Source: Paraburkholderia fungorum
Lineage (GTDB): Bacteria > Pseudomonadota > Gammaproteobacteria > Burkholderiales > Burkholderiaceae
Assembly (NCBI RefSeq): GCF_900099835.1
Contig: NZ_FNKP01000002.1
Location: 186,001-250,000 of the forward strand
Direction: 5' to 3'
Length of the DNA: 64,000 bases
The notes below the pieces were generated by a model. It had not been told where the DNA came from, did no database searches, and saw nothing but the letters and a program-made list of their open reading frames with translations. Of this stretch, positions 27,643-55,383 are shown piece after piece; positions within the stretch are counted from its first letter, which is position 1, and each line of letters starts with the position of its first letter. The position numbers and the translations under genes were made by a program.

Positions 27643-29174
<1,532 letters not shown>

Positions 29175-29236
29175 CGAGCTAACGCATCAAGTGTTGAGCG
29201 CTCACGCTTATCGGCTGTAAATCAAGACAGACTCAG

Positions 29237-29313: not shown

Positions 29314-29370
29314 CTGTTTCTGCGGTGGCTGCACTAATCGATAAAAAACCTCTGTGATATCTGTATGACT

Positions 29371-29768: not shown

Positions 29769-32649
<2,881 letters not shown>

Positions 32650-32812: not shown

Positions 32813-32928
32813 TGCCTGATGACCATAGCGAGTCGGTACCACCCCTTCCCATCCCGAACAGGACCGTGAAACGACTCCACGCCGATGATAGTGCGGATTG
32901 CCCGTGTGAAAGTAGGTAATCGTCAGGC
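32813..32928 (+). rRNA. rrf: 5S ribosomal RNA
   Basis: About 115 nt, starting TGCCTGATGACCATAGCGAG and ending CGTCAGGC, which pairs with the start. It contains the conserved CCATCCCGAACAG loop. It is the last gene of the rrn operon. Confidence 0.95.
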
Positions 32929-40011: not shown

Positions 40012-41085
40012 TCACACGTCGCGCGATGTCTCGCTGCTTTGCCGCGTCACCAGCTGAAAGCCGACATCGACCACTTTCGGCTCTGCCGCTCCGGCGTTTT
40101 CGTCGGCAGGCGTGTCGAGTTGCGACAGCAACTCTTGAGCGATCCGCAAGCCGATCGACGCGGCATGCGGCTGGATCGTCGTGAGCGGCGGCACGCAGAC
40201 CTGGCTGAACGGCAAATCGCCGAAACCGGTGACCGCCAGTTGCGCAGGCACGTCGATCCCGCGCCGCTGTGCTTCGAACAACACGCCGAGCGCCATCACG
40301 TCGTTGGAACAGGCAATGGCCTGCACATCCGGCATGCCGTCTAACGCAGCGGCCAGGGCTTCGCCGCCGCTGGTCGGCGACGCGCCGCTCTGCAAATCGA
40401 CGACGAACACGTCCACGCCTTTTCTCGCCAGCCAGTCACGCAGACCGTCGCAACGTTGCCGCGCGCGCAAGTCGCTGGTCATTCGCGCGCCCGCGAAGGC
40501 AATCCGCTGCGCGCCCAATTCGTACAGATGCGCGGCCAGCGTCTCGCCAACCGCGCGGTGCGAAAACCCCACCTGCAGATCGAACGGCTCGCCGCCGAGT
40601 TCCCACATCTCGGCGACCGGCGCGCGCGCCTGGCGCAACAGCATACGCGTCGCGTCGTCGTGCCGGCAGCCAGTGATCACCAGCGCGGTAGGCGACCACG
40701 ACAGAAACGTGCGCACCAGTTCGGTTTCGCGGACGGCATCGTAGTCGGTCGCACCGAGCAGCAACTGGTAGCCGTGACGATCGAATTCCTTCTGCATCGC
40801 CGCGACGGTTTCCGAAAAGAACGCGTTGCCGAGCGACGGCACTACCACGCCAATCGCGCGAGTGCGGGCGGCCGCCAGGCTGCCGGCGAGCAGGTTGGGC
40901 ACGTAGCCGAGCACGTCGATAGCCTGCTTGATACGCGGTGCGATGCGCGGCGACACCGCTTCGGGATTGCGCAGGAACAGGGAAACGGAACTGGGCGAGA
41001 CGCGCGCGCGCGCCGCGACGTCGTCCATCGTCACGCGGTTAGTGCCGCGCCTGACGCGAGGGGAGGCTTTGCTGGTCTGGGACAT
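40012..41085 (-). CDS. LacI-family repressor of the sulfoquinovose cluster
   Basis: Sugar-responsive repressor of 357 residues. The N-terminal HTH is RVTMDDVAARARVSPSSVSL (about residues 17-36), with a hinge and a periplasmic-binding-like effector domain (RTRAIGVVVPSLGNAFFSE; AIACSNDVMALGVLFEA; AVTGFGDLPFSQ) of the GntR/PurR type. ATG 41085 is used; a start 24 nt upstream is possible. It is divergent from the lactonase gene and the rest of the catabolic cluster. The 14-bp palindrome found both in this gap and before the symporter gene is its likely operator. The inducer is presumably sulfoquinovose or an intermediate. Confidence 0.9.
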   Translation of the reverse strand: MSQTSKASPRVRRGTNRVTMDDVAARARVSPSSVSLFLRNPEAVSPRIAPRIKQAIDVLGYVPNLLAGSLAAARTRAIGVVVPSLGNAFFSETVAAMQKEFDRHGYQLLLGATDYDAVRETELVRTFLSWSPTALVITGCRHDDATRMLLRQARAPVAEMWELGGEPFDLQVGFSHRAVGETLAAHLYELGAQRIAFAGARMTSDLRARQRCDGLRDWLARKGVDVFVVDLQSGASPTSGGEALAAALDGMPDVQAIACSNDVMALGVLFEAQRRGIDVPAQLAVTGFGDLPFSQVCVPPLTTIQPHAASIGLRIAQELLSQLDTPADENAGAAEPKVVDVGFQLVTRQSSETSRDV

Positions 41086-41217
41086 TCGGCCACATTTCGG
41101 GATATGCACTGTGAGTCAGCGCGGTGCGAGCCGGCTATTTTAAACCTCCGCAGCGCAATGAGCTATTCCATCAGTGATAACCCTGATGGCCCTGACAAGA
41201 ATCACAGCGCTATTATT

Positions 41218-41231
41218 TCGCAGCGCTGCGA
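41218..41231. promoter_or_regulatory. LacI-type operator 1 (lacI/lactonase intergenic gap)
   Basis: TCGCAGCGCTGCGA is a perfect 14-bp palindrome within the context ATTTCGCAGCGCTGCGATTT. A partial copy (ATCACAGCGCTATTAT) lies about 18 bp before it. An identical palindrome occurs at 43773. The even symmetry with central CG-rich core fits LacI-family operators. Confidence 0.7.
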
Positions 41232-41333
41232 TTTTCGCTTAAGGCGAGCAGTCGTGGTTTTTCAGCAGCATCGACCGGCGGTTTTTCGCCCCTCACCGAC
41301 CCGTTTGCCTAGCCCCGCCCGACTCGCCAGATC

Positions 41334-42230
41334 ATGACCGTTCTCTCCGTCTCCTCCGAATTCCAATGTGTGCTGAACGCCCAGGCCCAGCTTGGCGAAT
41401 GCCCGCGCTGGGACGAGCGCGAGCAGGTGCTGTACTGGGTCGACATCCTCGAACCCGCGCTGCATCGCTTCGATCCGGCGACGGGTGTCGATACGAAATT
41501 CATGCTGCCGGAACACATTGGCTGCTTCTCGTTGTGCGAAGGCGGCGGGTTTATCGCCGGGTTGCGTTCGGGCATCTGGACGCTCGACGAACACGCCCGT
41601 CCGCTCGACATGATCGCGTCGAATCCCGAGAATCAGCGCACCAGCCGCTTCAACGACGGCCGTTGCGACGCCGCAGGCCGCTTCTTCGCGGGCACCGTCG
41701 ACGAACCGAAGGCCGGCGGCAATGCGCATCTTTACCGGCTGGTTGCGTCGGCGCTGGGCGTGTTGAGCAGCGGTCTGATGACGTCGAACGGTCTCGCCTT
41801 CAGCCCTGACGGGCGCTGGCTCTATCACTCGGACACGCCGCGCTTCACCGTCTATCGCTCGCCGTACGACGTCGCCACCGGCGCCTGCGGCAAACGCGAA
41901 GTCTGGATCGAAGTCCAGCCGACGCAAACCGATCGCGGCCGCCCGGACGGCGCGGCGGTCGACGCAGAAGGCTACTACTGGAGCGCGTTCTACGAAGGCG
42001 GCCGGGTCGTGCGTTTTTCCCCGGACGGCGAAATCGACGCGGTCTACCCGCTGCCGGTGCGCTGCCCGACGATGTGCGCGTTCGGCGGCCCCGATCTGCG
42101 CACGCTGTACGTCACGAGCGCCCGGTCAGGCCGTCCCGCCGACGAACTCGCCCGCGAGCCGCTGGCCGGCGCGCTCTTCGCGCTGCGCACGGAAGTGCAC
42201 GGCCTCGTCGAACCCCGCTGGCGCGGCTGA
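41334..42230 (+). CDS. SMP-30/gluconolactonase-family lactonase, probable 6-deoxy-6-sulfogluconolactonase
   Basis: Six-bladed beta-propeller lactonase of 298 residues. Metal ligands of the SMP-30 family are present: Glu22 (LGECPRW), Asn152 (MTSNGLAFSPD) and Asp205 (GRPDGAAVD), plus RFNDGRCD at 105. In the sulfo-Entner-Doudoroff pathway this enzyme opens the sulfogluconolactone made by the SQ dehydrogenase. The substrate is inferred from the locus, since the family itself serves many sugar lactones. It is the first gene after the operator and is followed by the aldehyde dehydrogenase after 33 bp. Confidence 0.85.
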   Translation: MTVLSVSSEFQCVLNAQAQLGECPRWDEREQVLYWVDILEPALHRFDPATGVDTKFMLPEHIGCFSLCEGGGFIAGLRSGIWTLDEHARPLDMIASNPENQRTSRFNDGRCDAAGRFFAGTVDEPKAGGNAHLYRLVASALGVLSSGLMTSNGLAFSPDGRWLYHSDTPRFTVYRSPYDVATGACGKREVWIEVQPTQTDRGRPDGAAVDAEGYYWSAFYEGGRVVRFSPDGEIDAVYPLPVRCPTMCAFGGPDLRTLYVTSARSGRPADELAREPLAGALFALRTEVHGLVEPRWRG

Positions 42231-42263
42231 TCCGCGTCTTCCATCCTCACCGGTACTTTTCCC

Positions 42264-43730
42264 ATGCTGAATCTGAGAGATCCTGACCTGCTGCGCACGC
42301 AATGCCTGATCGGCGGCGAATGGTGTGATGCGCCCGAAGGCGGCACCATCAACGTAACCGATCCGGCCACCGGCGCGTTGCTCGGCACGGTGCCCGCGAT
42401 GGGCACGCGCGAAACCCGCGAGGCGATCGCCGCCGCGCAGGCGGCCTTGCCGGCCTGGCGCGCCCGCACGGCGCTGGAACGCGCCGGGTTGCTGCGCAAG
42501 TGGCACGAGTTGATCCTCGCGAATCAGGAAGACCTCGGTGCGCTGATGACCGCCGAGCAGGGCAAGCCGCTGGCCGAAGCCAGGGGCGAAATTGCGTTTG
42601 CCGCGAGTTTTATCGAGTGGTTCGCCGAAGAAGCAAGACGCGTGGATGGCGACGTGCTCGCGTCGCCGTCGAAAGACCGCCGCCTCGTCACGATCAGGCA
42701 GCCGGTCGGCGTGTGCGCCGCGATCACGCCGTGGAATTTCCCGGCCGCGATGATCACGCGCAAGGCCGGCCCGGCGCTCGCAGCCGGTTGCACGATGGTG
42801 CTGAAGCCCGCGTCGCAAACGCCGTTCACGGCGCTCGCACTCGCCGTACTGGCGCAGCGCGCGGGCATCCCCGCTGGCGTGCTGAACGTCGTGACCGGCG
42901 ACCCGCAAGCCATCGCCGACGAACTCACGAGCAATCCCATCGTGCGCAAGCTGTCGTTCACCGGATCGACGGCGATCGGCGCGCGGCTGATGGAGCAGGG
43001 CGCGCGCAATATCCAGAAGTTGTCGCTCGAACTGGGCGGCAATGCGCCGTTCATCGTGTTCGACGACGCGGACCTCGACGCGGCAGTCGAAGGCGCGTTG
43101 ATCTCCAAGTACCGCAACGCGGGTCAGACCTGCGTGTGTGCGAACCGTTTTTACGTGCAGGCCGGTGTCTACGACGCATTCGTCGGTAAACTATCGGCCC
43201 GCGCGCAAGCGCTGAAGCTCGGCGACGGCCGTGCGCCGGATACGCAGATCGGTCCGCTGATCGACGCCCGCGCGTTGTCGAAAATCACCGCGCTGGTCGA
43301 CGACGCCCGTTCGCAAGGTGCGAATGTGCTGTGCGGCGGCGAAGCGCTCGCGCTGTCCGCTGACGGCGTCGCGCGTCACTACGCGCCGACGGTGCTCACC
43401 GGCGTGACCCCCGGCATGCGGGTCGCGCGCGAGGAAATTTTCGGCCCGGTCGCGCCGGTGATGCGTTTCACCGACGAGCAGGACGTGATCGCACTCGCCA
43501 ACGACACCGAATTCGGTCTCGCCAGCTACTTCTACACGCGCGACATCGGCCGCGTGTGGCGGGTTGCCGAAGCGCTGGAGTTCGGCATGGTCGGCATCAA
43601 CACCGGCCTCATTTCAACCGCTGAGGCGCCGTTCGGCGGCGTCAAGCAATCAGGCATTGGCCGCGAGGGTTCGAAGTACGGAATCGACGAATACCTGGAA
43701 ATGAAATACCTGTGCATGCAGGTCGCCTGA
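42264..43730 (+). CDS. Aldehyde dehydrogenase of the succinate-semialdehyde type, probable sulfolactaldehyde dehydrogenase
   Basis: NAD(P)-dependent aldehyde dehydrogenase of 488 residues, GabD-like. Catalytic Cys290 lies in NAGQTCVCANRF, the general base Glu256 in LSLELGGNAPF, and the cofactor site in SFTGSTAIGARLM. In sulfo-ED bacteria a GabD-like enzyme oxidises 3-sulfolactaldehyde to sulfolactate, the last step before export. That substrate is inferred from the gene set; by sequence alone it would be called succinate-semialdehyde dehydrogenase. It is followed by a gap containing operator 2. Confidence 0.85.
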   Translation: MLNLRDPDLLRTQCLIGGEWCDAPEGGTINVTDPATGALLGTVPAMGTRETREAIAAAQAALPAWRARTALERAGLLRKWHELILANQEDLGALMTAEQGKPLAEARGEIAFAASFIEWFAEEARRVDGDVLASPSKDRRLVTIRQPVGVCAAITPWNFPAAMITRKAGPALAAGCTMVLKPASQTPFTALALAVLAQRAGIPAGVLNVVTGDPQAIADELTSNPIVRKLSFTGSTAIGARLMEQGARNIQKLSLELGGNAPFIVFDDADLDAAVEGALISKYRNAGQTCVCANRFYVQAGVYDAFVGKLSARAQALKLGDGRAPDTQIGPLIDARALSKITALVDDARSQGANVLCGGEALALSADGVARHYAPTVLTGVTPGMRVAREEIFGPVAPVMRFTDEQDVIALANDTEFGLASYFYTRDIGRVWRVAEALEFGMVGINTGLISTAEAPFGGVKQSGIGREGSKYGIDEYLEMKYLCMQVA

Positions 43731-43772
43731 CTTCGCGCGTGATGGAAACCGGCACTGTCGCGCGACCAGAAA

Positions 43773-43786
43773 TCGCAGCGCTGCGA
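43773..43786. promoter_or_regulatory. LacI-type operator 2 (upstream of the symporter gene)
   Basis: TCGCAGCGCTGCGA again, in the context AAATCGCAGCGCTGCGAAAC. Compared with operator 1 in reverse orientation, 19 of 20 bases agree. It lies about 80 bp before the symporter start, implying a second regulated promoter within the cluster. Confidence 0.7.
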
Positions 43787-43864
43787 AACTGACGCCAGCA
43801 AGATTCCGCATCCACGGGACCGGCGTCCGAATCCACCTCAAAGAAGAACACCGAGGAGACGATC

Positions 43865-45607
43865 ATTTTTACGATATTGAGTTTTGCCTTCTTTACCGCG
43901 CTGGTGGGATTCGTGTCCTACCTGTTCACGCGCCGCGCGAAAGACGTCGGCGCGCGCGGCTACTTCATGGCAAGCGGCGGACTGACCGGCTGGTTTATCG
44001 CCGGGTCGATGATGCTGACCAACCTCTCCGTCGAGCAGATGGTCGGGCTGAACGGCGACGCGTATGCGCACAACCTGTCGGCGATGGCGTGGGAGTGCAC
44101 GGCGGCGGTCGCCACGGTCGCGCTCGCGATGTTCTTTCTGCCGCGCTATCTGCGCGGTGGGTTTTCGACTTTGCCGCAGTTTCTCGAAGAGCGCTTCGAC
44201 GCGACCACCCGGCGCGTGGTCAGCGCGCTGTTCGTGGTCGGCTACATGCTCGTGGTGAATCCGTCCGGTCTGTACCTCGGCGCGATCACCTTCAATCAGG
44301 TGTTCGGCGTGCAGGCGATGCTCGGCACGTCGTATCCGGTGACGATCACGTTGCTCGTATGGATGTCCGGGATCATCGGTGCGCTGTACGCGATTTTCGG
44401 CGGTCTGCGCGCGGTGGCCGTGTCGGACACGATCAACGGCGTGGGCTTGCTGATCGCCGGTTTGATGGTGCCGGTGCTGGGCTTCTACGCGCTCGGTCAC
44501 GGCGACTTTTTCTCCGGTCTGCATACGGTCGCGACGCAGGCGCCGGAAAAGCTGTCGGCGATCGGCGGCCCGCATGACTCGGTGCCGTTCGGCACGCTGT
44601 TCACCGGCATGATCTTCGCGAACCTTTTCTACTGGTGTACGAATCAATCGATCGTGCAGCGGACCTTTGCGGCGAAGAACCTTGCCGAAGGGCAGAAGGG
44701 CGTGCTGCTGTCGGGCCTGCTGAAACTGCTGGTGCCGATTGTGATGATGCTGCCCGGCGTGATCGCGTTCCATCTGTATTCGAGCAATCCGCTGAGCCGT
44801 CCCGACCTCGCGTATCCGCAACTGGTGGCCGATCTGTTGCCGTGGTGGGCGAAAGGCTTCTTCGTCGCCGTGCTGTTCGGCACCGTGATGAGCCACTTCA
44901 ACGCAGTGATCAACAGTACCGCCACGCTCGTCGCGTTCGACTTTTATCGCGCGTGGAAACCGGATGCTTCGGACGAGAAACTGATTCGCGTCGGCAAATC
45001 GGCGAGCGTCGCGATTGCCGTGGTGTCGCTGCTGATCGCACCGCTGCTGATGTACGCGCCGGACGGCATTTACATGGTGATGCGCCGCTTCACCGGCTTC
45101 TTCAACATTCCGATTATCGCCGTGGTGCTGGTGGGTTTCTTCAACAAGAAGATCGAAGCGTTGCCCGCGAAGATCGTGCTGCTGCTGCACGTCATCGTCT
45201 ACACGTTGCTGATTTTCGTGTTCAAGGTCGACAAGGTGTACGGCATCAACTTCATTCACATCATGGGCATTCTGTTCGTGAGTGAAGTCGCGCTGATGCT
45301 CTTGCTCGGCATGCGTTTCCGCCGCGCGGTTCCGTATGAAGCGCAGTTCCGTCAGCACGGCGACCTCACGCCGTGGCGCTTCGCCAGCACGATGAGCGTG
45401 CTGCTGATGGCGATGCTGGTGAGTCTGTATCTCACGTTCTCGCCGCTGGGTGTCGCGCGGCAAGGCGGCGTGACGACGCAATACATGGTGTGGATGGCGA
45501 TTACGTGGTGCGTGGCCGTGGTGCTGATCGCGACGTTGCGCCGGCGTGAATCGGCTGCGCATCGTGGCGTGGAATGGCGTCATGCATCGCCGGAACAGCG
45601 GCACTGA
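43865..45607 (+). CDS. Sodium/solute symporter (SSS family), probable sulfoquinovose importer
   Basis: Inner-membrane Na+-coupled transporter of about 580 residues with some 14 helices; the SSS marks include [35 protein letters not shown] and FGTVMSHFNAVINSTATL. The start appears to be ATT at 43865: GAGGAG lies 6 nt before it and translation gives MFTILSFAFF, the expected N-terminus, while the nearest conventional start, TTG 43877, is 18 nt from that site. AUU starts are rare (infC is the known case). Within this locus the likely cargo is sulfoquinovose or its glycoside; that is inference. It ends 31 bp before the GH31 gene. Confidence 0.88.
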   Translation: MFTILSFAFFTALVGFVSYLFTRRAKDVGARGYFMASGGLTGWFIAGSMMLTNLSVEQMVGLNGDAYAHNLSAMAWECTAAVATVALAMFFLPRYLRGGFSTLPQFLEERFDATTRRVVSALFVVGYMLVVNPSGLYLGAITFNQVFGVQAMLGTSYPVTITLLVWMSGIIGALYAIFGGLRAVAVSDTINGVGLLIAGLMVPVLGFYALGHGDFFSGLHTVATQAPEKLSAIGGPHDSVPFGTLFTGMIFANLFYWCTNQSIVQRTFAAKNLAEGQKGVLLSGLLKLLVPIVMMLPGVIAFHLYSSNPLSRPDLAYPQLVADLLPWWAKGFFVAVLFGTVMSHFNAVINSTATLVAFDFYRAWKPDASDEKLIRVGKSASVAIAVVSLLIAPLLMYAPDGIYMVMRRFTGFFNIPIIAVVLVGFFNKKIEALPAKIVLLLHVIVYTLLIFVFKVDKVYGINFIHIMGILFVSEVALMLLLGMRFRRAVPYEAQFRQHGDLTPWRFASTMSVLLMAMLVSLYLTFSPLGVARQGGVTTQYMVWMAITWCVAVVLIATLRRRESAAHRGVEWRHASPEQRH

Positions 45608-45638
45608 TTTTTTCGATTTCGAAGCAAGGACGAATGTG

Positions 45639-47663
45639 ATGGACTGGCAGATAGATGCAGACGGCAAGCTGACGCTGCGCGTCGCGAACCGCACGCTGTT
45701 CGAACACTCGCCGCAAGCGCCGGCCGTGTTCGTCGGACGCGGTGTGGAAACGGTCGAGATGTATCGCGGCAACTTCGATATCAGCGACTACGTCGAGGAG
45801 CGCGTTGCATTGCGAGACGCGCGTCTCACGCAGAATGCGGACGGCAGCGCGCGCATCGAACTCGCGCGTCACGCGGATACCCCGGCGGAACTGGTGATCA
45901 CCGCGCAGCGCACGGCGAACGGCGTGCATCTCGCGTTGTCCGGCGATGCGTCGCTCAATCGCTTGTGGTGGCGCGTGCCCGCTCAGGCCGACGAACACGT
46001 GTGGGGTTGCGGCGAGCAGATGTCGTATTTCGATCTGCGCGGCAGGCACTTTCCGCTGTGGACCTCGGAGCCCGGCGTCGGTCGCGACAAGAGCACGCAT
46101 CTCACCTGGCAGGCCGACGTGACGTCGAAGTCGGGTGGCGATTACTACCACACCAACTATCCGCAACCCACCTTCGTTTCGTCGCAGAAGTACTGCCTGC
46201 ATGCGCAAACCACCGCGTATGCGGACTTCGATTTTCGCCATGACGGATGGCACGAATTGCAATTCTGGGCCGTGCCGGAGCGCCTCGAATTCATCGTCGC
46301 CGATGACTTCGTCACGCTGGTCGAACGCATTTCGATGCGCTTCGGCCGCCAGCCGACGTTGCCCGACTGGGTGATGAACGGCGCGATTCTCGGCCTCAAA
46401 AACGGTCGCGATCACGCGCAGGAAATTTTCGAAGCGAGCCGCGCAGCAGGCGTCGCGGTGAGCGGTTTGTGGTGCGAAGACTGGGCAGGCATTCGCCAGA
46501 CCTCGTTCGGCAAGCGTCTGTTCTGGGACTGGCGCTGGAACGACACGCGCTATCCCGGTCACGCGGAATGGCTCGCGCAACTGAAGCAGGACGGTGTGCG
46601 TTTTCTCGGTTACGTGAACCCGTATCTGTGCAATGACGGCACGCTGTATCAGGAAGCGCTTGCGGCCGACTATCTCGCGAAACACGCGGACGGCAGCCAG
46701 TATCTGGTCGATTTCGGTGAGTTCGATTGCGGCGTGGTCGACTTTACGAATCCGGCCGCGGCTCGCTGGTTCGAAGAGCGCGTGATCCGCGGCGAAATGC
46801 TCGACCGTGGACTCGACGGCTGGATGGCCGACTTCGGCGAATATCTGCCGACCGATCTGGTGCTCGCCAACGGCGTCGACGCGATGCTGATGCACAACGC
46901 GTGGCCGACGCTGTGGGCCGAAGTCAACGCCCGCGCGATTGCCGCAGCGGGACGCACCGGCGACGCACTGTTCTTCATGCGCGCAGGTTATACGGGTGTG
47001 CAGGCGCATTGCCCACTGCTGTGGGCCGGCGACCAATCGGTCGACTTCACGCGGCACGACGGCTTGCAGACGGTGATCTGCGGGGCGTTGTCGTCGGGCT
47101 TGCTCGGCAACGCGTATCACCACAGCGATATCGGCGGATATACGAGCCTGTTCGGCAATGTGCGCACGCCCGAACTGTTCCAGCGCTGGGCCGAAATGGC
47201 CGCGTTCACGCCGGTCATGCGCACGCACGAAGGCAATCGTCCGGCCGAGAATTTCCAGTTCTGGCAGGACGCCGACGTGCTCGCGCATTTCGCGCGCATG
47301 ACGCGTCTGTTCGTCGCGTTGAAGCCCTACGTACAAGGTCTCATCGACGAAGCCGCGGCGCGCGGTTTGCCGTTGCAGCGTCCGCTGTTCCTGCACTACG
47401 AACACGACGCCGCGACCTACGCGATTCAGGACCAGTACCTGTATGGCCGCGATCTGCTGGTCGCGCCCGTGCATGCCGCCGGCGCAACGCAATGGAGCGC
47501 GTATCTGCCCTCGGGCGATGCGTGGACGCATCTGTGGAGCGGTGTCGAATACGAAGGCGGTCAGCGCGTGACGGTTGACGCGCCGCTCGGCGAACCGCCG
47601 GTCTTCGTTCGACGTGGCGCGACGAATACCGCTCACTGGCTCGATCTGGTCAAGGCGCTCTGA
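45639..47663 (+). CDS. GH31 sulfoquinovosidase (YihQ family, KERWY clade)
   Basis: Retaining glycoside hydrolase of 674 residues that releases sulfoquinovose from sulfoquinovosyl glycerol or lipids. The nucleophile is Asp398 (GWMADFGEYLPTD) and the acid/base Asp465 (LWAGDQSVDF), matching Asp405 and Asp472 of E. coli YihQ. The sulfonate pocket residues align as Lys254 (LGLKNG), Glu280 (WCEDW), Arg293 and Trp296 (GKRLFW) and Tyr501 (IGGYTSL), the K-E-R-W-Y set described for Agrobacterium-type sulfoquinovosidases rather than the Q-Q-R-W set of E. coli. No signal peptide is seen, so it acts in the cytosol. ATG 45639 has AAGGA 9 nt upstream. It overlaps the next gene by one base. Confidence 0.92.
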   Translation: MDWQIDADGKLTLRVANRTLFEHSPQAPAVFVGRGVETVEMYRGNFDISDYVEERVALRDARLTQNADGSARIELARHADTPAELVITAQRTANGVHLALSGDASLNRLWWRVPAQADEHVWGCGEQMSYFDLRGRHFPLWTSEPGVGRDKSTHLTWQADVTSKSGGDYYHTNYPQPTFVSSQKYCLHAQTTAYADFDFRHDGWHELQFWAVPERLEFIVADDFVTLVERISMRFGRQPTLPDWVMNGAILGLKNGRDHAQEIFEASRAAGVAVSGLWCEDWAGIRQTSFGKRLFWDWRWNDTRYPGHAEWLAQLKQDGVRFLGYVNPYLCNDGTLYQEALAADYLAKHADGSQYLVDFGEFDCGVVDFTNPAAARWFEERVIRGEMLDRGLDGWMADFGEYLPTDLVLANGVDAMLMHNAWPTLWAEVNARAIAAAGRTGDALFFMRAGYTGVQAHCPLLWAGDQSVDFTRHDGLQTVICGALSSGLLGNAYHHSDIGGYTSLFGNVRTPELFQRWAEMAAFTPVMRTHEGNRPAENFQFWQDADVLAHFARMTRLFVALKPYVQGLIDEAAARGLPLQRPLFLHYEHDAATYAIQDQYLYGRDLLVAPVHAAGATQWSAYLPSGDAWTHLWSGVEYEGGQRVTVDAPLGEPPVFVRRGATNTAHWLDLVKAL

Positions 47664-48457
47664 TGACCGGTTCGTTCGTCCATCACCTGATGTTCGTCGT
47701 CTGCGTCGCGCTCGCGACGTTCACGCAAAGCCTGACCGGCTTCGCGTTCGGACTGGTGCTGCTCGGCCTCGTCGCGGTGTTTCATCTCGCGCCGTTGCCG
47801 GTCGCCGCCAACGTTGTCACGGTGATGGTGCTCGCCAACGCCGCGCTGCTCGTGCGCAGCCTGCCGGCTTTGCCGCGCCGCGTGGCAGTGCCCGCGTTCG
47901 GCAGCAGTCTGGTCGGCGTCGCGCTCGGCGCGTGCCTGCTCGCGTGGCTGTCGGATAACGCGATCGGCGTGGTGCGTGTCGCGCTCGGCATCGCGATTCT
48001 CGCGTGCAGCGTGTTGCTGGTCGTGCAGACGAAGCCGCGTGCGCAACTGTCGTCGCCGGGTGCGTTCGCTTTTTACGGCGTGGTGTCCGGCGTGATGGGC
48101 GGCGTATTTGCGAGCGCCGGTCCGCCGATGGTGTTTCACCTTTATCGCCAGCCGCTCGACCGGCTGGTCGTGCGCGACACGCTCGTGCTGGTGTTCGCGG
48201 TGAACGCGGTGTTGCGGCTTGGCATCGTGCTGCAGCAAGGCCGTTTCGACGCCGATTCGCTCGCGCTCAGCCTCGAAGCATTGCCGGTCGTGTTGCTGGT
48301 GACGTGGCTCGCGCGTCGTTATCCGCCCGCATGGTCGCCTGGCGCGGTGCGCCGCGTCGTCTTCGTGCTGCTCGCGATTGCGGGCGGGAGCCTCGTCGCT
48401 CCGGCCGTGACCTCGGCATTCGCGTCGCCGCACGCGCTTTCTCATCAATCTTCTTAA
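47663..48457 (+). CDS. TauE/SafE-family exporter, probable sulfolactate efflux
   Basis: Inner-membrane protein of 264 residues with eight or so hydrophobic segments and the TauE/SafE repeats (FTQSLTGFAFGLVLLGLVAVF; GAFAFYGVVSGVMGGVFASAGPP). Members export sulfite or C2/C3 sulfonates. In sulfo-ED organisms such a gene accompanies the catabolic set and is thought to release sulfolactate. The ATG overlaps the GH31 stop (TGATG). Confidence 0.88.
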   Translation: MTGSFVHHLMFVVCVALATFTQSLTGFAFGLVLLGLVAVFHLAPLPVAANVVTVMVLANAALLVRSLPALPRRVAVPAFGSSLVGVALGACLLAWLSDNAIGVVRVALGIAILACSVLLVVQTKPRAQLSSPGAFAFYGVVSGVMGGVFASAGPPMVFHLYRQPLDRLVVRDTLVLVFAVNAVLRLGIVLQQGRFDADSLALSLEALPVVLLVTWLARRYPPAWSPGAVRRVVFVLLAIAGGSLVAPAVTSAFASPHALSHQSS

Positions 48458-48476
48458 GCCTACGGCTCTCACTATC

Positions 48477-50219
48477 GTGCCAGACAAGCTCAAACAACTC
48501 GCCGATCTGCGCAGCCAGCGCTGGCTCGCTCCCGACGACATGCGTTCGTTCGCGCATCGTCAGCGCCTGCAGCAGATGGGCTTGCGCCGCGAAGAATTCA
48601 TGACGCGGCCGGTGATCGGCATCGTCAATACGTGGAGCGATCTTTCGCCGTGTCACGCGCATATGCGCGAGCGCGCGGAGGCCGTGAAGCGCGGCATCCT
48701 GATGGCGGGCGGCATGCCGTTCGAACTGCCCGCGATGTCGCTCGGCGAGGTCATGGTCAAGCCGACCACGATGATCTACCGCAACCTGCTCGCGATCGAA
48801 ACCGAGGAACTGCTGCGCTCGCTGCCGATCGACGGCGCGGTGCTGATGGGCGGCTGCGACAAGACTACGCCGGGTTTGCTGATGGGCGCGTTGTCGGCGG
48901 ATCTGCCGTGCATCTTCGTGCCGGCGGGGCCGATGCTCAGCGATCGTCATCGCGGACAGGTGGTCGGCGCGGGCACGCATACCAAGAAGTTCTGGGACGA
49001 ATACGTCGCGGGCAATCTGGAGCAGCCCGAATGGATCTCGCTCGAAGCGCGTATGACGCGCGCGCCGGGCACCTGCAACACGATGGGCACGGCGAGCACG
49101 ATGACCTCCATCGTCGAGGCGATGGGCTTCACGCTGCCCGGCGCGACCAGCATTCCGGCGATGGATTCCGCGCATACACGGATGTGCTCGGCGAGCGGCG
49201 AGCGCATTGTCGGCATGGTGTGGGAAGACCTGAAGCCGAGCCGCTTCTTCATTCGCGCGGCGGTCGAGAACGGCATCGTCGCGTATATGGCGTTAGGCGG
49301 CTCCACCAACGCGGCCATTCACACGATTGCGATTGCGGGGCGCGGCAATGTCGACCTGACGCTCGATGAGATCGCGCGCGTCGGCGCGAACATTCCGGTG
49401 CTGGCCGACGTGTTCCCGTCGGGCGCGCGTCTGATGGAAGACTTCTATTACGCGGGCGGCCTGCCTGCGCTGCTGTCGGAATTGAAGCCGCGTCTGTCGC
49501 TCGATTGCATGAGCGTGAACGGCAAGACGCTCGGCGACAACCTCGCGGCGTTCGAAGCGGGCCAGCGTCCGCAGAACGAGGACGCGATTCGTCCGCTGAA
49601 CAATCCGGTGACCGAAGGCGCGGCGCTCGGCGTGCTGCGCGGCAACCTTGCGCCGTCTGGCGCGGTGATCAAGCCGAGCGCGGCGAGCCCGCATCTGCTG
49701 AAGCATCGTGGCCGCGCGCTGGTGTTCGATTCGATCGCGGAAATGAACGCACAGATTCACGCGCCCGATCTCGACGTCGATGCCGACACCGTGCTTGTGT
49801 TGCGAGGCGGCGGCCCGATCGGCGCGCCGGGCATGCCCGAGTGGGGCAATCTGCCGATCCCGAAGAAGCTGCTCGCAGCGGGCGTGCGCGACATGCTGCG
49901 TATTTCCGATGCACGCATGAGCGGCACGCACTACGGCACCTGCGTGCTGCACGTCGCGCCGGAAGCGGCGGCGGGCGGCCCGCTCGCGCTGATCCGCACC
50001 GGCGACATCATCGAGCTCGATGTGGAAGCCGGGCGTCTCGACGTGCTGCTTTCCGTCGAAGAACTGGCGAGCCGCCGCGAAAGCTGGCGCGCTCCGCCGA
50101 AGGCACGTCAGCGCGGCTATATCCGCCTCTATGTCGATCACGTCACGCAGGCCGACAAGGGCTGCGACTTCGATTTTCTGGCCGGCTTCGAAGAACCGGT
50201 CGAACCGCCCATCTTCTGA
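48477..50219 (+). CDS. IlvD/Edd-family dehydratase, probable 6-deoxy-6-sulfogluconate dehydratase
   Basis: Iron-sulfur dehydratase of 580 residues in the IlvD/Edd family, closest in form to pentonate/hexonate dehydratases. Cluster cysteines are Cys59 (LSPCHAHM), Cys127 (GGCDKTTPG) and Cys200 (PGTCNTMGT), and the Mg-binding lysine region follows. In the sulfo-ED route it turns sulfogluconate into 2-keto-3,6-dideoxy-6-sulfogluconate. The start is GTG at 48477, 19 bp after the exporter; no strong ribosome site is visible, so coupling to the upstream gene is likely. The exact substrate is inferred from the cluster. Confidence 0.87.
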   Translation: MPDKLKQLADLRSQRWLAPDDMRSFAHRQRLQQMGLRREEFMTRPVIGIVNTWSDLSPCHAHMRERAEAVKRGILMAGGMPFELPAMSLGEVMVKPTTMIYRNLLAIETEELLRSLPIDGAVLMGGCDKTTPGLLMGALSADLPCIFVPAGPMLSDRHRGQVVGAGTHTKKFWDEYVAGNLEQPEWISLEARMTRAPGTCNTMGTASTMTSIVEAMGFTLPGATSIPAMDSAHTRMCSASGERIVGMVWEDLKPSRFFIRAAVENGIVAYMALGGSTNAAIHTIAIAGRGNVDLTLDEIARVGANIPVLADVFPSGARLMEDFYYAGGLPALLSELKPRLSLDCMSVNGKTLGDNLAAFEAGQRPQNEDAIRPLNNPVTEGAALGVLRGNLAPSGAVIKPSAASPHLLKHRGRALVFDSIAEMNAQIHAPDLDVDADTVLVLRGGGPIGAPGMPEWGNLPIPKKLLAAGVRDMLRISDARMSGTHYGTCVLHVAPEAAAGGPLALIRTGDIIELDVEAGRLDVLLSVEELASRRESWRAPPKARQRGYIRLYVDHVTQADKGCDFDFLAGFEEPVEPPIF

Positions 50220-50244
50220 ATTCACAGCATTCACAGGTTACGTC

Positions 50245-51081
50245 ATGACTCAAAGAATCAAGCAGGACCCCACGCGCAATGCGTTCCGTGATGCGTTGAA
50301 AGCACCGGCCGGCACCAGCACGATGCGTGCAAAACCGCTCGGCACATGGTTGATGGCGGGGTCCGCGGCGAGCGCGGAGGCGTTCGGTCATGCAGGCTTC
50401 GACTGGCTGCTGATCGACATGGAACACGTGCCGCTCGAATTCACCGACGTGCTGCATCTGTTGCAAGCGGTCGATTGCGGCGGCGCCGCGCCGATCGTGC
50501 GTCTGGCGAAAACCGACCCGACGCTCGCCAAGCGCGCGCTCGACATGGGCGCGCCGACGTTGATGTTCCCGTTCGTGCAGAGCGTGGAGGAAGCGCGTGC
50601 GGCGGTCGCATCGACCAAGTTCCCGCCGCTCGGAACGCGGGGTTTTGCCGCGATGCATCGCGCTAGCCGCTATGGCACGTGGAGCGAATTCGGCCGGCGT
50701 GCGAACGAAGCGACCGCGTGCATCCTGCAACTGGAAACGCCGGAAGCGATTGCGCAACTCGAAGCAATCGCCGCCGTGCCCGGCGTGGATGCGCTGTTCG
50801 TCGGGCCGGGCGATCTGTCCGCGGCGATGGGCAAGATCGGCAATCTCGCCGATGCCGACGTGCGTGCGGCGCTGGCCGATTGCGCGCGTCGCGCGAACGC
50901 GATCGGCATGCCGATCGGCATCGTCGGACCGACGCCCGCGATGGTGCGCGAGTTCATCGAAATGGGCTACGACTTCGTGGCTATCGCGTCGGACATGGGC
51001 ATGATGATGCGTCAGGCCAACGCGTTCATCGCCGAACTGACGCAGACGCAAGTCGCCGCCGATGCAGGCGGCCCGTACTGA
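50245..51081 (+). CDS. HpcH/HpaI-family aldolase, probable KDSG aldolase
   Basis: Class II pyruvate aldolase of 278 residues. The catalytic His61 and metal residues lie in LLIDMEHVPLEF (58-65); other marks are QLETPEAIAQLE and FVGPGDLSAAMG. In this locus it would split the keto-deoxy sulfogluconate into pyruvate and 3-sulfolactaldehyde. Related enzymes act on 2-keto-3-deoxy sugar acids, so the sulfonated substrate is inferred. ATG 50245 gives the proper family N-terminus; the frame is open upstream inside the dehydratase gene. The next gene starts 2 bp after its stop. Confidence 0.88.
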   Translation: MTQRIKQDPTRNAFRDALKAPAGTSTMRAKPLGTWLMAGSAASAEAFGHAGFDWLLIDMEHVPLEFTDVLHLLQAVDCGGAAPIVRLAKTDPTLAKRALDMGAPTLMFPFVQSVEEARAAVASTKFPPLGTRGFAAMHRASRYGTWSEFGRRANEATACILQLETPEAIAQLEAIAAVPGVDALFVGPGDLSAAMGKIGNLADADVRAALADCARRANAIGMPIGIVGPTPAMVREFIEMGYDFVAIASDMGMMMRQANAFIAELTQTQVAADAGGPY

Positions 51082-51083
51082 TC

Positions 51084-51977
51084 ATGACGGACGCTCACAC
51101 CCTGCTCGCATTGACGAGCGACGTCTGGCAGATACGGCTCGCGCCTTCGCTGGGCGGATCGATTATCGATGCGCGGTGGCGCGGCCACGACGTACTCCGG
51201 CCGACCACCGACGAGCAACTCGCGTTGAACAACGCGCGCAAGACGGCGTGCTATCCGCTGGTGCCGTTTTCGAATCGTGTGGGCTTCGGCCAGTTCGAGT
51301 TCGACGGCGAGAAGCACACGTTGCACGCGAATTTTCCGGGTGAACCGCACGCGGTTCACGGCGTTGGGTTTCAGCGCGCGTGGTACGTCGGCGAGCACAG
51401 CGATAGTGCGATCGACATGCATCTGACGCACACGCCTGATCGCTCGTGGCCGTTTGCGTTTGCCGCGCGTCAGCGCATTCGCATCGACGACGACAGGTTG
51501 ATGCTGACGCTGAGCGTGACCAATCTCGACAAACGTCGTGCGCCTTGCGGTCTCGGCTGGCATCCGTTTTTTCCGCTCGATACCGCCGCTGGAAAAACCC
51601 GGCTCGCGACCGAATGGGACGCGATGCTCGTCAGCGGCCCCGATCAGCTGCCGCGTGAGCGGGTCGAGCCGCCCGCATTACCCGCGCTCGACGACACCGT
51701 GGTCGATAACTGCTTTACCGGCTGGAACCGCCGCGCGTCGATCGATACGCCGCATCACCACATTCGCGTCGACGCCAGCGACACGCTGCGCTGCATCGTG
51801 CTGTTCCGGCCCGAAGGTCAGCCGTTTTTTGCGTTCGAACCCGTCAGTCATCCGAACAATGCGCTGAATGGTATCGAACCGTCGATGCATGTGCTCGAAC
51901 CCGGCGCGACGCTCGAAGGCGAAATCGCGCTGACGCTCTCGCCCCGCACAACCGATTCTTTAAGGACATCAGCATGA
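51084..51977 (+). CDS. Aldose 1-epimerase family protein, probable sulfoquinovose mutarotase
   Basis: Galactose mutarotase-like protein of 297 residues. A catalytic His is in PHAVHGVGFQRAW (His92), the second in LGWHPFFPLD, and the C-terminal FEPVSHPNNALN matches the family. It would interconvert alpha- and beta-sulfoquinovose after the glycosidase acts, feeding the dehydrogenase. ATG 51084 lies 2 bp after the aldolase stop, and its own stop overlaps the dehydrogenase start (ATGA). Confidence 0.87.
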   Translation: MTDAHTLLALTSDVWQIRLAPSLGGSIIDARWRGHDVLRPTTDEQLALNNARKTACYPLVPFSNRVGFGQFEFDGEKHTLHANFPGEPHAVHGVGFQRAWYVGEHSDSAIDMHLTHTPDRSWPFAFAARQRIRIDDDRLMLTLSVTNLDKRRAPCGLGWHPFFPLDTAAGKTRLATEWDAMLVSGPDQLPRERVEPPALPALDDTVVDNCFTGWNRRASIDTPHHHIRVDASDTLRCIVLFRPEGQPFFAFEPVSHPNNALNGIEPSMHVLEPGATLEGEIALTLSPRTTDSLRTSA

Positions 51978-52783
51978 AAGCCTCACGGCCAATCTATCCG
52001 GGCCTCGCGGGCCAGGTCGCGTTCATTTCCGGCGGCGCGTCGGGAATCGGCGAGGCGCTTGTCGAAGCGTTCTGGGAGCAGGGCGCGCAGGTCGCGTTCT
52101 GCGATATCGACAGTGATGCGGGCAACGCATTGTGCGAGCGACTCGCCGCGACCTCCGCCACCGACACACAGGTCGCGCGTCTGAAGCCATGGTTCGCTGT
52201 GTGCGACGTACGCGACATCGACGCCTATCGCGTCGTGCTCGACGACGCAGCGCGCGCACTAGGGCCGATCCGTACGCTGGTCAACAACGCGGGCCGCGAT
52301 ACGCGTCACGCGCTGGACGATCTGTCGGTCGACATGTGGCACGACATGCTCGCCGTGAACCTCACGCATCACGTGTTCGCAACGCAGCGCGTGGCCCCGG
52401 GGATGCAGGCGGCCGGCGGCGGTGCGATCGTCAATCTCGGCTCGATTTCGTGGTTGCGCGGGCGTCCCAATCTGATCGGCTATACCGCGTCGAAGGCGGC
52501 GATTTCCGGCATCACGCGCACGCTCGCGCGCGAACTTGGTGAGCACGATATTCGCGTGAATGCCGTGCTGCCCGGCGCGGTCGTGACCGAACGGCAGAGC
52601 GCGTTGTGGCGCGATGCCGCCGCCGATCAGCAGTTTATCGATCTGCAATGCCTGAAGTTTCGCGTCGAGCCGTCGCATATCGCCGATTCGGTGCTGTTCC
52701 TCGCAAGTCCGCAAGCGGCTGCGATCACCGGGCAGAACCTGCTGGTCGATGCGGGGCTCGCGCAGGTGTCGGTAGTGGGCTGA
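51974..52783 (+). CDS. SDR-family dehydrogenase, probable sulfoquinovose dehydrogenase
   Basis: Classical short-chain dehydrogenase of 269 residues. The NAD site is SGGASGIGEA (19-28) with Asp44 in AFCDID favouring NAD over NADP; NNAG is at 104, and the catalytic set is Ser157, Tyr170 and Lys174 (YTASK). In sulfo-ED this step oxidises sulfoquinovose to the lactone, the first committed reaction. The substrate comes from context. It is the last gene of the tightly packed run and is followed by a hairpin terminator. Confidence 0.88.
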   Translation: MKASRPIYPGLAGQVAFISGGASGIGEALVEAFWEQGAQVAFCDIDSDAGNALCERLAATSATDTQVARLKPWFAVCDVRDIDAYRVVLDDAARALGPIRTLVNNAGRDTRHALDDLSVDMWHDMLAVNLTHHVFATQRVAPGMQAAGGGAIVNLGSISWLRGRPNLIGYTASKAAISGITRTLARELGEHDIRVNAVLPGAVVTERQSALWRDAAADQQFIDLQCLKFRVEPSHIADSVLFLASPQAAAITGQNLLVDAGLAQVSVVG

Positions 52784-52809
52784 AGGCGGCCTGAAAAGTG
52801 AGTGGAAAA

Positions 52810-52827
52810 GCGGGCTAAAAAGCCCGC
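52810..52827 (+). terminator. Terminator-like hairpin after the SDR gene
   Basis: GCGGGCT-AAAA-AGCCCGC is a perfect 7-bp stem 26 nt after the stop, followed within 10 nt by GTTTGTT. It may end the main transcript or reduce read-through into the porin gene. Confidence 0.65.
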
Positions 52828-52887
52828 CGAAGTTTGTTCGCGTGATTCAAAAAAACAGAAAAAAGACAGCAGTTTGGAGACGCATTG

Positions 52888-54018
52888 ATGACATACGAAA
52901 ACAGGCAGTCACGGTATCGCACGAAACAGAACGACAAGAGCTTGAGAAAAGGCCTGGCGCTTTATGCCTTCACGGCCGGATGCGCGTTGCTGGGCGCGCA
53001 CACGGCGCACGCGCAATCGAGCGTCACGCTATACGGTATCGTCGATTCGGCGGTGCAGTACGGCAAGTTCAACAGCACCGTCTCGCCGACCGCGATGGCC
53101 GCGAGCGGCAACCTCCAGGCGTCGCGTTTCGGTTTTCGCGGCAGCGAAGATCTGGGGCAGGGGTATCGCGCGAACTTCCAGCTCGAAACGGGCTTTAATA
53201 CCTACACGGGCGTGGGCGGCGGTTCGACGCTGTTCAACCGGGGCGCGTCGGTCGGCCTGTCGAGCACGCGCTACGGCAGCATCGACGCGGGTGAGTTGTA
53301 TCTGCCGATTTACTGGGTGTTTCTCGCGTCGGACGTCGCTACGTATGGTCTGTCGAACCCGGCGGCGATCATGTCGCTTCAGCACAGTTCCACGCTCGGC
53401 AAGTCGGGCACCGGTGGCTTCTATCCGAATGCAGTGCGTTACCGGACTCCGGCGACACTGGGCGGATTGTCGGCGGAAATCGGTTATTCGTTCGGTTCGC
53501 AGAACACATCGGGTCAAACCGTCGACGGACGCAATATCGGCATGAACGTCCAGTACGCGAAGAACGGGCTGCTGCTCGGTTATGGCTTCAATCGCTACCA
53601 GTACTACGCGAACACGAGCACGCTGACGGCGTCGTCACAACTGACGCAGGTGGCGACCGCGACGTATCAGATCGGCAATAACGTGATCGGTGCCAACTAC
53701 GTGTACTCGAAGCGCACCGATGCGACCGCGTGGTTTGCTTCGTCGTTTCTGCTGAACGCGAAAATTCCGGCGGGTCCGGGCGATATCGAAATCGGTGTCG
53801 CGCGCCGGATCGAGAACGCCGAGGCGCGCGCGATGGCTTATAACGTCGGCTATGTGTACTACCTGTCGAAGCGCACGCAACTGTACGGCTATGCGTCGAT
53901 GATCTCGAACAACAGTCACTCGACGCAGGGCTTCGGATTGCTGAACTCGACGTACGCGACCGTGACGCCGGGCTTCGATCCGTGGGTGGTGACGGCGGGG
54001 TTGCGGACGTCGTTCTGA
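52888..54018 (+). CDS. Gram-negative porin at the end of the sulfoquinovose cluster
   Basis: Outer-membrane porin of 376 residues, burkholderial OmpC-like. The N-terminus is long for a signal (about 43 residues: basic stretch, then GLALYAFTAGCALLGAHTAHA, cleaved before QSSVTLYG). The mature part is a 16-strand barrel ending in Phe (AGLRTSF). ATG 52888 has GGAGA 7 nt upstream; a TTG one codon earlier is not needed. Its position suggests entry of sulfoquinovosyl glycerol or similar anionic sugars; no LacI operator was seen just before it. Confidence 0.88.
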   Translation: MTYENRQSRYRTKQNDKSLRKGLALYAFTAGCALLGAHTAHAQSSVTLYGIVDSAVQYGKFNSTVSPTAMAASGNLQASRFGFRGSEDLGQGYRANFQLETGFNTYTGVGGGSTLFNRGASVGLSSTRYGSIDAGELYLPIYWVFLASDVATYGLSNPAAIMSLQHSSTLGKSGTGGFYPNAVRYRTPATLGGLSAEIGYSFGSQNTSGQTVDGRNIGMNVQYAKNGLLLGYGFNRYQYYANTSTLTASSQLTQVATATYQIGNNVIGANYVYSKRTDATAWFASSFLLNAKIPAGPGDIEIGVARRIENAEARAMAYNVGYVYYLSKRTQLYGYASMISNNSHSTQGFGLLNSTYATVTPGFDPWVVTAGLRTSF

Positions 54019-54138
54019 AGTGACCATATCGACATGACCATGGAAATCGCGGACCAGTTGCGCTAGTCTCCAGCGTGCGCCGAATTGACCGGCGCTACCG
54101 GACGAGTCCGGGAAAAACAACCATGGGGACGTTTCGCG

Positions 54139-55383
54139 ATGTCGGACCAAAGCGGTAGTCAATCTGTCACGCTGCCCGAGCGGGCCGGCAATCAATCGGC
54201 ATTGCGCCAGGTTGCGGCTTCGCGGTTTTTTCTCGGCGCAACGATTGCGATGTTTCTGTCGGGGCTCGGCACGTCGGCGGCGGCACCGCAGATCGTGCCC
54301 TTCCTCGTGAAAGAACTCGGCGCGTCGCTGCCGCTCGCCGGGTTTTATTATCTGACCAGTCTTGCCGCTCCGTTCGCCGGATATTTCGTCGGCCGTTACT
54401 CTGATCGCACGGGCAATCGCCTCGGTCTGTTTCGCGTATGCGCCGTCGCGGGTTTTCTAGGTTGGGCGGGGCTGGCGCTTTCCACGTCGGTCTGGGTGCC
54501 GTTCGTCCTCGCTGTCGTTTTGCTGGCTGTTTCCGGTGCAACAGCCTCGCAGATTTTTGCGGCCGTTCACGATGAACTCAGCGAGAAGCCCGGCGACGCA
54601 AATGAGAGCGTGGTCGCCATCATCCGTATGGCGCTGACCGGTGGATGGATCGTTGGACCTGTGCTGGGCGCGTGGGTGGCGGCTGCGTACGGCCTGCGCC
54701 CGATGCTCTGGATGACCGCCATCTGCCTGCTTCTGCAGATCGCCCCTCTCGGCACGCTGAACCCCGTCGGCAAGCTCAAGCCGCAGCAGACGGGTGACGC
54801 GGCGCGTCACACCGGTCTGCGCGCGATGCTTCCCCTGCTGGCCTTCACGGCGCTCTTCGTCCTTGTCTATGCCGGCGAACCCGTGAAATACGGATTCCTG
54901 CTGATCTACATGGAGGAGCAACTCAAGCTGAGTCCGGCCGTGCGCGGAGCGGTCATCGGCATACAGCCGTTTATCGAACTGCTGATCATGCCGTTCAGCA
55001 TCGGACTGGGACGCAGGCTCGGCAACGTGTGGTTGATGTGTATCGCCGCCGCGATGGGGATATTCGCCAATCTCTGCTTCGCGCTGTGGCCGTCCGCAGC
55101 GGGCATGTTCGCCGGACAGATTCTCATGGGCGGTGTCTGGGGCATATTCATGGTCTTGGGGATCATCGTGGCGCAGCGCCTGCTTCCCGACGCGGTAGCG
55201 ACGGCGTCGGCCATCTTCATGAGTTCGACGGCGCTTGCATCGGCGTTGGGCGGCATGACGGGCGGCTTCGGCGTTGCATGGCTGGGCCTTCCGAATGTCT
55301 TCCTGCTGCCCGCCCTTTTCAGCGGTATGGCCGTTATCGGACTGGCGCTCATGGCGCGCACTGAACGCTTCAAGTTGTCCTGA
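54139..55383 (+). CDS. MFS transporter resembling SetA/SetB sugar efflux proteins
   Basis: Inner-membrane protein of 414 residues with 12 predicted helices. The stretch IIRMALTGGWIVGPVLGAWVAA and the loop VGRYSDRTGNRLGLF match the Set sugar-efflux group, which relieves sugar-phosphate stress by exporting sugars. It lies 120 bp after the porin and could belong to the sulfoquinovose locus as a safety valve, but no operator or overlap proves this. ATG 54139 with upstream GGGGAC was chosen over an earlier in-frame start. Confidence 0.78.
   Translation: MSDQSGSQSVTLPERAGNQSALRQVAASRFFLGATIAMFLSGLGTSAAAPQIVPFLVKELGASLPLAGFYYLTSLAAPFAGYFVGRYSDRTGNRLGLFRVCAVAGFLGWAGLALSTSVWVPFVLAVVLLAVSGATASQIFAAVHDELSEKPGDANESVVAIIRMALTGGWIVGPVLGAWVAAAYGLRPMLWMTAICLLLQIAPLGTLNPVGKLKPQQTGDAARHTGLRAMLPLLAFTALFVLVYAGEPVKYGFLLIYMEEQLKLSPAVRGAVIGIQPFIELLIMPFSIGLGRRLGNVWLMCIAAAMGIFANLCFALWPSAAGMFAGQILMGGVWGIFMVLGIIVAQRLLPDAVATASAIFMSSTALASALGGMTGGFGVAWLGLPNVFLLPALFSGMAVIGLALMARTERFKLS

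Follow-up and report, generated by a model that had tools for sequence, protein, structure and literature searches.

A probable sulfo-Entner-Doudoroff operon for sulfoquinovose in Paraburkholderia fungorum, with a predicted two-operator LacI regulon

A stretch of 64,000 nucleotides of Paraburkholderia fungorum (the window; bases 186001-250000 of contig NZ_FNKP01000002.1, here C2) holds an eleven-gene locus at window positions 40012-54018. Judged from its sequence, this locus is, with a probability of about 0.93, a self-contained sulfo-Entner-Doudoroff (sulfo-ED) operon for sulfoquinovose that ends in the release of sulfolactate. Sulfoquinovose is a sulfur-containing sugar that plant membranes hold in abundance. 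Felux and co-workers reportedly described the sulfo-ED pathway of Pseudomonas putida SQ1 in 2015. About 10 billion tonnes of the sugar are produced a year (PMC12133307; papers given here by PMC number are cited from excerpts), and the reported carriers of sulfo-ED are found among the alpha-, beta- and gammaproteobacteria (PMC9594981, PMC12890257). The locus is a new example of an already known pathway, to which it adds a few testable new details. The host genome has 8,581,175 bases in four contigs.

The original prediction of a complete sulfo-ED gene set was borne out, as all eleven genes are open frames and Pfam returns the stated family for each of the eleven proteins. It had placed the genes on one strand, which holds for ten of them; the LacI-family repressor gene (40012..41109) lies divergently on the minus strand. 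From there, the order along the plus strand is lactonase, aldehyde dehydrogenase (ALDH), symporter, glycoside hydrolase family 31 (GH31) protein, TauE, dehydratase, aldolase, mutarotase, short-chain dehydrogenase/reductase (SDR) and porin. The ten co-directional genes are separated by 33 bases or less or overlap slightly, with two exceptions, a gap of 146 bases before the symporter, which contains predicted operator 2, and one of 101 bases before the porin. The families of all five sulfo-ED steps and the mutarotase are found by Pfam in this one array. Because the ten genes are co-directional and closely spaced, and because the identical gene order recurs in the loci of relatives, a chance assembly can be excluded. 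The earlier argument that each family alone is ambiguous and the set is not is upheld by this array and by the residues described below.

In the proposed pathway, sulfoquinovose or its glycerol glycoside would use the porin to pass the outer membrane and the Na+-coupled symporter to enter the cell. The GH31 sulfoquinovosidase would release alpha-sulfoquinovose, whose anomers would be equilibrated by the mutarotase. With NAD+, the SDR would convert sulfoquinovose to the lactone, the SMP-30 protein would open the lactone, and the Edd-type dehydratase would form 2-keto-3,6-dideoxy-6-sulfogluconate (KDSG). The HpcH aldolase would cleave KDSG to pyruvate, which would be kept, and sulfolactaldehyde, which the GabD-like enzyme would turn into sulfolactate for export by the TauE-type protein. 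The divergent LacI protein would act on two identical palindromes, switching this locus only. The sequence itself shows which genes are there and in what order, the specificity residues of two enzymes, and that the palindrome is unique and conserved; what each protein does, what is transported and which way, and the pairing of LacI with its operators are inferred from it.

Two enzymes assign the substrate as a sulfosugar, the GH31 protein by its complete sulfonate-binding set and the SDR by the residues that it keeps. Against solved structures, the GH31 protein (45639..47663, plus strand) scores 971 bits with 5OHY, 969 with 5OHS, 880 with 8R56, 818 with 6PNR and 770 with Escherichia coli YihQ, and the next structure outside this sulfoquinovosidase group scores 150 bits. 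Its best solved relatives, 5OHY and 5OHS, we take to be the Agrobacterium sulfoquinovosidase. Position by position, the sulfonate-site residues K254, E280, R293, W296 and Y501 are those of the Agrobacterium enzyme, and the catalytic D398 and D465, mapped from alignments, are identical as well. The protein thus carries the sulfonate set K/Q-E/Q-R-W-Y and two catalytic Asp of a sulfoquinovosidase, of the KERWY subtype, and the claim that its pocket ties the locus to a sulfonated sugar stands on the match of these residues. Asp405 of YihQ is described as a catalytic residue (PMC11968277). The GH31 frame as listed starts at 45546, probably too early, and the alignment of relatives begins at 45639. 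No second sulfoquinovosidase-type GH31 was found in the genome, whose other two GH31 matches are 29% and 27% identical.

The closest solved protein of the SDR (51974..52783, plus strand) is the P. putida sulfoquinovose dehydrogenase PpSQDH (9GWU; 255 bits, 55% identity over 246 positions), compared with 217 bits for 7WWX and 203 for 4LVU. The cofactor, sugar, sulfonate and catalytic residues given for PpSQDH are Asp45, Asp99, Arg101, Asn119, Ser147, Arg152, Arg154, Tyr160, Lys164 and Gln198 (PMC12133307), and 10 of 10 are kept in the window, as in an NAD+-dependent sulfoquinovose 1-dehydrogenase. Both arginines of the sulfonate site, Arg152 and Arg154, are kept in 26 of the 28 loci fetched (L008-L033) and are missing in L034 and L035, whose distant SDRs were left out of the sulfo-ED counts.

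These residues bear on the identity of the sugar. A non-phosphorylative route in which a GH31 alpha-glycosidase serves a sugar without a sulfonate, be it fucose, galactose, xylose or arabinose, would agree with the best NCBIfam models of two enzymes, namely L-arabinonate dehydratase for the dehydratase (873 bits, below the cut-off of 882) and D-xylose 1-dehydrogenase for the SDR (287, below the cut-off of 400). We regard it as extremely improbable, with the GH31 protein grouping with the solved sulfoquinovosidases and having all the sulfonate residues, the SDR keeping Arg152 and Arg154, absent from 7WWX and 4LVU, and an L-fucose-like cluster, recognized by eye, sitting elsewhere in the genome. 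Fucose and galactose, named as alternatives in the original prediction, are disfavoured by the same GH31 and SDR residues. Another sulfosugar, for example sulfofucose, the C4 epimer, is also very unlikely to be the true substrate. By themselves, the residues of the SDR leave room for it, as the PpSQDH contacts listed are to C1-C3 and the sulfonate, with none to C4 (PMC12133307). In Paracoccus sp. Merri, a set of dehydrogenase, lactonase, dehydratase and aldolase is one of two candidate sulfofucose routes (PMC12421959). Against sulfofucose stand the GH31 protein, which is of the sulfoquinovosidase type, the description of sulfofucose as rare (PMC12421959), and the end of the Paracoccus route in SuyAB, since the search of the window's genome gave no SuyB-type candidate.

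For the remaining steps of a sulfoquinovose pathway, the lactonase, dehydratase and aldolase families lie in the same cluster on the plus strand. The predicted sulfogluconolactonase of the SMP-30 family (41334..42230) matches PF08450 with 279 bits. The predicted sulfogluconate dehydratase of the IlvD/Edd family (48477..50219; PF00920 and PF24877) and the predicted KDSG aldolase of the HpcH/HpaI family (50245..51081; PF03328) resemble solved sugar-acid enzymes at family level only, with the dihydroxyacid dehydratase 8EJ0 (625 bits) and the 2-dehydro-3-deoxygalactarate aldolase 1DXE (198 bits) as best solved relatives. The predicted sulfoquinovose mutarotase of the aldose-1-epimerase family (51084..51977, plus strand; PF01263) has the His-His-Glu set as H92, H160 and E252 in the usual mutarotase motifs, placed by motif position. 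The predicted sulfolactaldehyde dehydrogenase, a GabD-like ALDH (42264..43730, plus strand; PF00171, TIGR01780 above cut-off), has R166, R284, C290 and E256 in the motifs of RlGabD R171, R289, C295 and E261, and the two arginines have been proposed for sulfonate binding in RlGabD (PMC10599462). The window ALDH looks like a dedicated copy, because it is 84-85% identical to the cluster-borne enzymes of the other Paraburkholderia lineage (lineage B, below) and 64% to the best paralogue in its own genome.

The release of sulfolactate, also part of the original prediction, is likely, with the limit that the residues compared in the ALDH do not separate sulfolactaldehyde from succinate-semialdehyde dehydrogenase. 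Sulfolactate likely leaves via the TauE/SafE-family protein (47663..48457, plus strand; PF01925), a probable sulfolactate exporter whose gene is kept in the clusters of relatives. Release is the most likely fate because no SuyB-type or Xsc protein, as C-S cleaving enzyme, was found in the genome (CuyA was outside the search). We take PF04295 to be the SuyB family. Its four members in the genome include no SuyB-type protein; one exceeds the cut-off for galactarate dehydratase, two more are related to it over the full length and stay below this cut-off, and one is shorter and lies in the fucose-like cluster. The Xsc cut-off was reached by no protein of the genome (best 300 vs 676 bits). A split UxaA-like pair at C2:2999494 was considered as SuyAB and rejected, as its neighbours (by eye, a sugar ABC transporter, an aldo-keto reductase, an amidohydrolase-type protein and an SDR) fit the pattern of an L-fucose pathway.

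It is conceivable, at fairly low odds, that the locus is sulfo-ED with the sulfonate mineralised further or reduced to 2,3-dihydroxypropane-1-sulfonate (DHPS) instead of being released as sulfolactate. Vibrio splendidus takes sulfo-ED to DHPS (PMC13372026), the search of the window's genome did not cover CuyA or sulfolactaldehyde reductases, and the sister loci of Burkholderia sp. SRS-W-2-2016 (L008, genome G092), P. sejongensis (L009, G082) and Paraburkholderia antibiotica (L010, G006) have no ALDH, with none at E 1e-150 in the whole L009 genome. For the window itself, the ALDH in the operon, much closer to that of the other lineage than to its own best paralogue, and the lack of a SuyB-type or Xsc candidate among the proteins searched favour sulfolactate.

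An importer, as originally predicted, is present as a Na+/solute symporter (SSF; listed at 43877..45607, plus strand; PF00474, NF007790 with 689 bits), which probably brings in sulfoquinovose or the glycerol glycoside of this sugar. No other match to it was found in the genome at E 0.001, and in a class-wide sample of 369 genomes it had a match in the window's own genome alone (1/369). The symporter probably starts upstream of the listed position. It begins with ATG in L011-L014, L016, L017, L053 and L055-L057, and the corresponding place in the window, L008-L010 and the locus of Herbaspirillum sp. LeCh32-8 (L015) reads ATC ATT after a purine-rich GGAG. From the last in-frame stop to this place, L008-L010 and L015 have no ATG, GTG or TTG. 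The true start is probably ATT or ATC at 43862-43867, 12-15 bases upstream, which the open reading frame finder cannot list, and the TTG it gave in the window probably encodes a leucine inside the protein, as L008-L010 and L015 have CTG there. Arg403 of the symporter was considered as a mark of sulfonate binding and rejected, as it is present in all homologues aligned, even in distant Alteromonas and Bacillus. The outer-membrane general porin (52885..54018, plus strand; PF13609) adjoins the SDR in relatives too.

Several points weigh against the reading as a sulfoquinovose operon. The NCBIfam label of the GH31 protein is alpha-glucosidase, an old name that is also on the YihQ deposit. Eight of the ten SDR residues are common to 7WWX and 4LVU and just two discriminate; therefore, the two arginines are the informative part of the SDR evidence. 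Both ALDH arginines occur also in ordinary E. coli GabD, the closest solved relative, and three of the four loci of the window's lineage (L008, L009 and L010), as well as Herbaspirillum L015, are without ALDH in the cluster. The symporter has Arg403 at the position of vSGLT Gln428, as do 116 of 116 aligned homologues (those over 500 residues among 120 listed; 7801 matched overall), so that the pocket comparison does not discriminate for sulfosugars. The dehydratase, aldolase and lactonase are assigned by family, and all assignments are predictions from sequence.

The regulator and its predicted sites form a further part of the system. The LacI-family protein matches Pfam LacI and Peripla_BP_3, and its nearest NCBIfam model is of GntR type, under its cut-off. 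The perfect 14-base palindrome TCGCAGCGCTGCGA is found at 41218-41231, between lacI and the lactonase gene (predicted operator 1), and at 43773-43786, before the symporter gene (predicted operator 2), and the 8.58 Mb of the genome contain no third perfect copy. A search that tolerates one mismatch shows no genome-wide enrichment, with 8 places against 22 for a reversed control, so that the perfect copies alone carry weight. Within the window, the 5 matches that differ at no more than two bases are not significant, as 7 of 100 shuffles reach 5. What supports the operators is the two perfect copies, where they lie and how well they are conserved. Allowing one mismatch at most, operator 1 is conserved in 7 of the 9 relative genomes whose stretch covers the place, and operator 2 in 11 of the 13 read. 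For these counts, L052 was merged with L008 and L057 with L016, being from the same genomes, and L011-L014 and L016 as first fetched begin within the lactonase gene and are uninformative on operator 1. L015, without a palindrome within two mismatches, and L017 fail at both positions. From position and uniqueness, we infer that the LacI protein pairs with both palindromes, and its regulon looks private to the locus because both perfect palindromes of the genome lie here and are conserved in most relatives. A scan gave 2 promoter-like sites (2.3 expected), none at the operators, and 14 terminator-like sites (12.3 expected).

Of 144 genomes sampled from the genus, 13 have the GH31 gene, as do 10 of the 398 genomes of a family sample (E 1e-180, two first-look candidates scored per genome). 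The Paraburkholderia relatives split into two lineages, lineage B with a gene like glycoside hydrolase family 188 (GH188) and the window's lineage without. Lineage B comprises G011, G021, G077, G078, G096, G102, G107 and G108, where the GH188-like gene lies 6.4-6.5 kb from the GH31 gene; thus, 8 of the 13 genomes with GH31 have GH188 co-located with it, with the GH188 of G021 split over two frames. In L011-L014 and L016, the GH188-like gene is in the region at about 12.0-13.2 kb of each locus. The L011 protein scores 456 bits to ArSqgA 8QC3 and keeps Arg166, Leu170 and Lys172 (read by eye off the alignment, numbered via a 14-residue offset at Tyr136); the PDB codes of GH188 structures, including 8QC3, are given in PMC10755693. 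A ninth GH188 match, in G075, is partial and without GH31. No GH188 was found in the window, nor at E 1e-60 in its genome, G006, G082, G092 or G008. The GH188 clusters examined before were described as being without GH31, with complementary distributions of both families (PMC10755693). Within the genus, the two are co-located instead of complementary as published. Such a dual form, if true, could in principle handle glycosides of both the alpha and the beta type. Among 15 loci compared, the genes flanking the window's locus downstream were found only in L008 and L010; the loci extend unequally past the porin, L052 and the turned loci only a little, so that differing surroundings apply mainly to L009 and L011-L017.

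The ALDH also varies between the lineages. It is in the cluster in 7 of the 7 lineage-B genomes read (L011, L013, L014, L016, L053, L055 and L056; G011 is excluded from this count). GabD-like enzymes are encoded outside the cluster in the genomes of L008, L010 and L015 (best identity 63-69%); this genome search left out L012. The end product may differ where the cluster lacks ALDH, namely in L008, L009, L010 and L015. We see about an even chance for a wider claim, in which LacI and two operators control the Paraburkholderia sulfo-ED locus as a private regulon and a Na+-coupled (SGLT-like) symporter supplies it with sulfoquinovose, in a dual GH31 and GH188 form or a GH31-only form, with ALDH repeatedly missing from the cluster in the latter, so that relatives may excrete different C3 sulfonates.

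Outside the genus, ten loci (L020-L028 and L031; Rhodoferax, Polaromonas, Comamonadaceae and unnamed betaproteobacteria) carry a GH188-like protein and no sulfoquinovosidase-type GH31 in the stretch fetched. The GH188-like gene is directly before the orthologous SDR in 9 of these 10 loci, and L022 has a mutarotase between them. Two unrelated sulfoquinovosidase families would thus accompany the PpSQDH-type dehydrogenase, a point in favour of the sulfoquinovose reading. The L021 protein scores 322 bits to 8QC3 and has Tyr at the position of Leu170, and GH188 variants at this position, such as Tyr, are described in PMC11465081. The SDRs of these ten loci have Gly at the position of the NAD-specifying Asp45 and perhaps use NADP. 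TctC-type receptor genes occur in the clusters of L021, L023 and L026.

Two further loci deserve a separate description. L017 belongs to Candidatus Burkholderia humilis, a leaf-nodule symbiont. Here every match to the lactonase, ALDH, symporter, GH31 protein or dehydratase is broken into pieces, and there is no mutarotase match. This cluster looks decayed, or may contain errors of the draft assembly. L054 (G008, same genus) has a GH31 sulfoquinovosidase 66% identical to that of the window, a dehydratase 77% and an aldolase 64% identical, together with parts of an ABC transporter, an AraC regulator, a PhyH dioxygenase and one protein that weakly matches xylose isomerase. No sulfoquinovose dehydrogenase or lactonase match was found within the 19 kb read, and L054 is possibly another sulfoquinovose route. 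Elsewhere in the window, a complete rRNA operon (16S, tRNA-Ile, tRNA-Ala, 23S and 5S) with G+C below its surroundings lies at 27642-32928, and a match to the adenosylcobalamin riboswitch at 23366-23452 is barely above the gathering score (50.7 vs 50). A gene of the major facilitator superfamily at 54085-55383 was considered as a member of the system and rejected, having no match in the relatives' loci searched.

In a 2026 isotope-probing study, a Burkholderiaceae variant was labelled, its close relatives were found to have no canonical cluster, and the variant was taken as a likely secondary consumer (PMC13372026). The Paraburkholderia locus shows that, by sequence, some Burkholderiaceae carry a complete gene set for the primary sulfo-ED pathway. 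In the portions of the open-licence literature available, no description of a Paraburkholderia sulfo-ED locus or its operator was found, nor of a Na+-coupled sulfosugar symporter as importer or of co-located GH31 and GH188 sulfoquinovosidases. The importer and the operator of the locus are open to experiment, and its relatives, some with GH188 or ALDH and some lacking them, form a natural series.

Compared with known systems, the locus shares the same five catabolic steps and the same protein families with the sulfo-ED pathway of P. putida SQ1 (PMC9594981, PMC12890257), and its SDR is 55% identical to PpSQDH with the ten checked residues all kept. Within the Burkholderiales, it resembles the predicted sulfo-ED operon of Herbaspirillum seropedicae AU14040, whose sulfoquinovose mutarotase was proven in 2018 (PMC5902678), and H. 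seropedicae is counted among the experimentally verified sulfoglycolytic organisms (PMC10599462). The locus of Herbaspirillum sp. LeCh32-8 (L015) has the gene order of the window with 61-87% identity and differs by the lack of ALDH in the cluster and of a palindrome within two mismatches. The NAD+-dependent GH188 sulfoquinovosidases serve the same step as GH31 (PMC10755693), whereas the window and its genome have none at E 1e-60. The GH31 protein itself has the same sulfonate-binding and catalytic residues as the Agrobacterium sulfoquinovosidase (5OHS/5OHY), of the KERWY subtype, and differs from E. coli YihQ (5AED) in having, like the Agrobacterium enzyme, Lys and Glu where YihQ has Gln and Gln.

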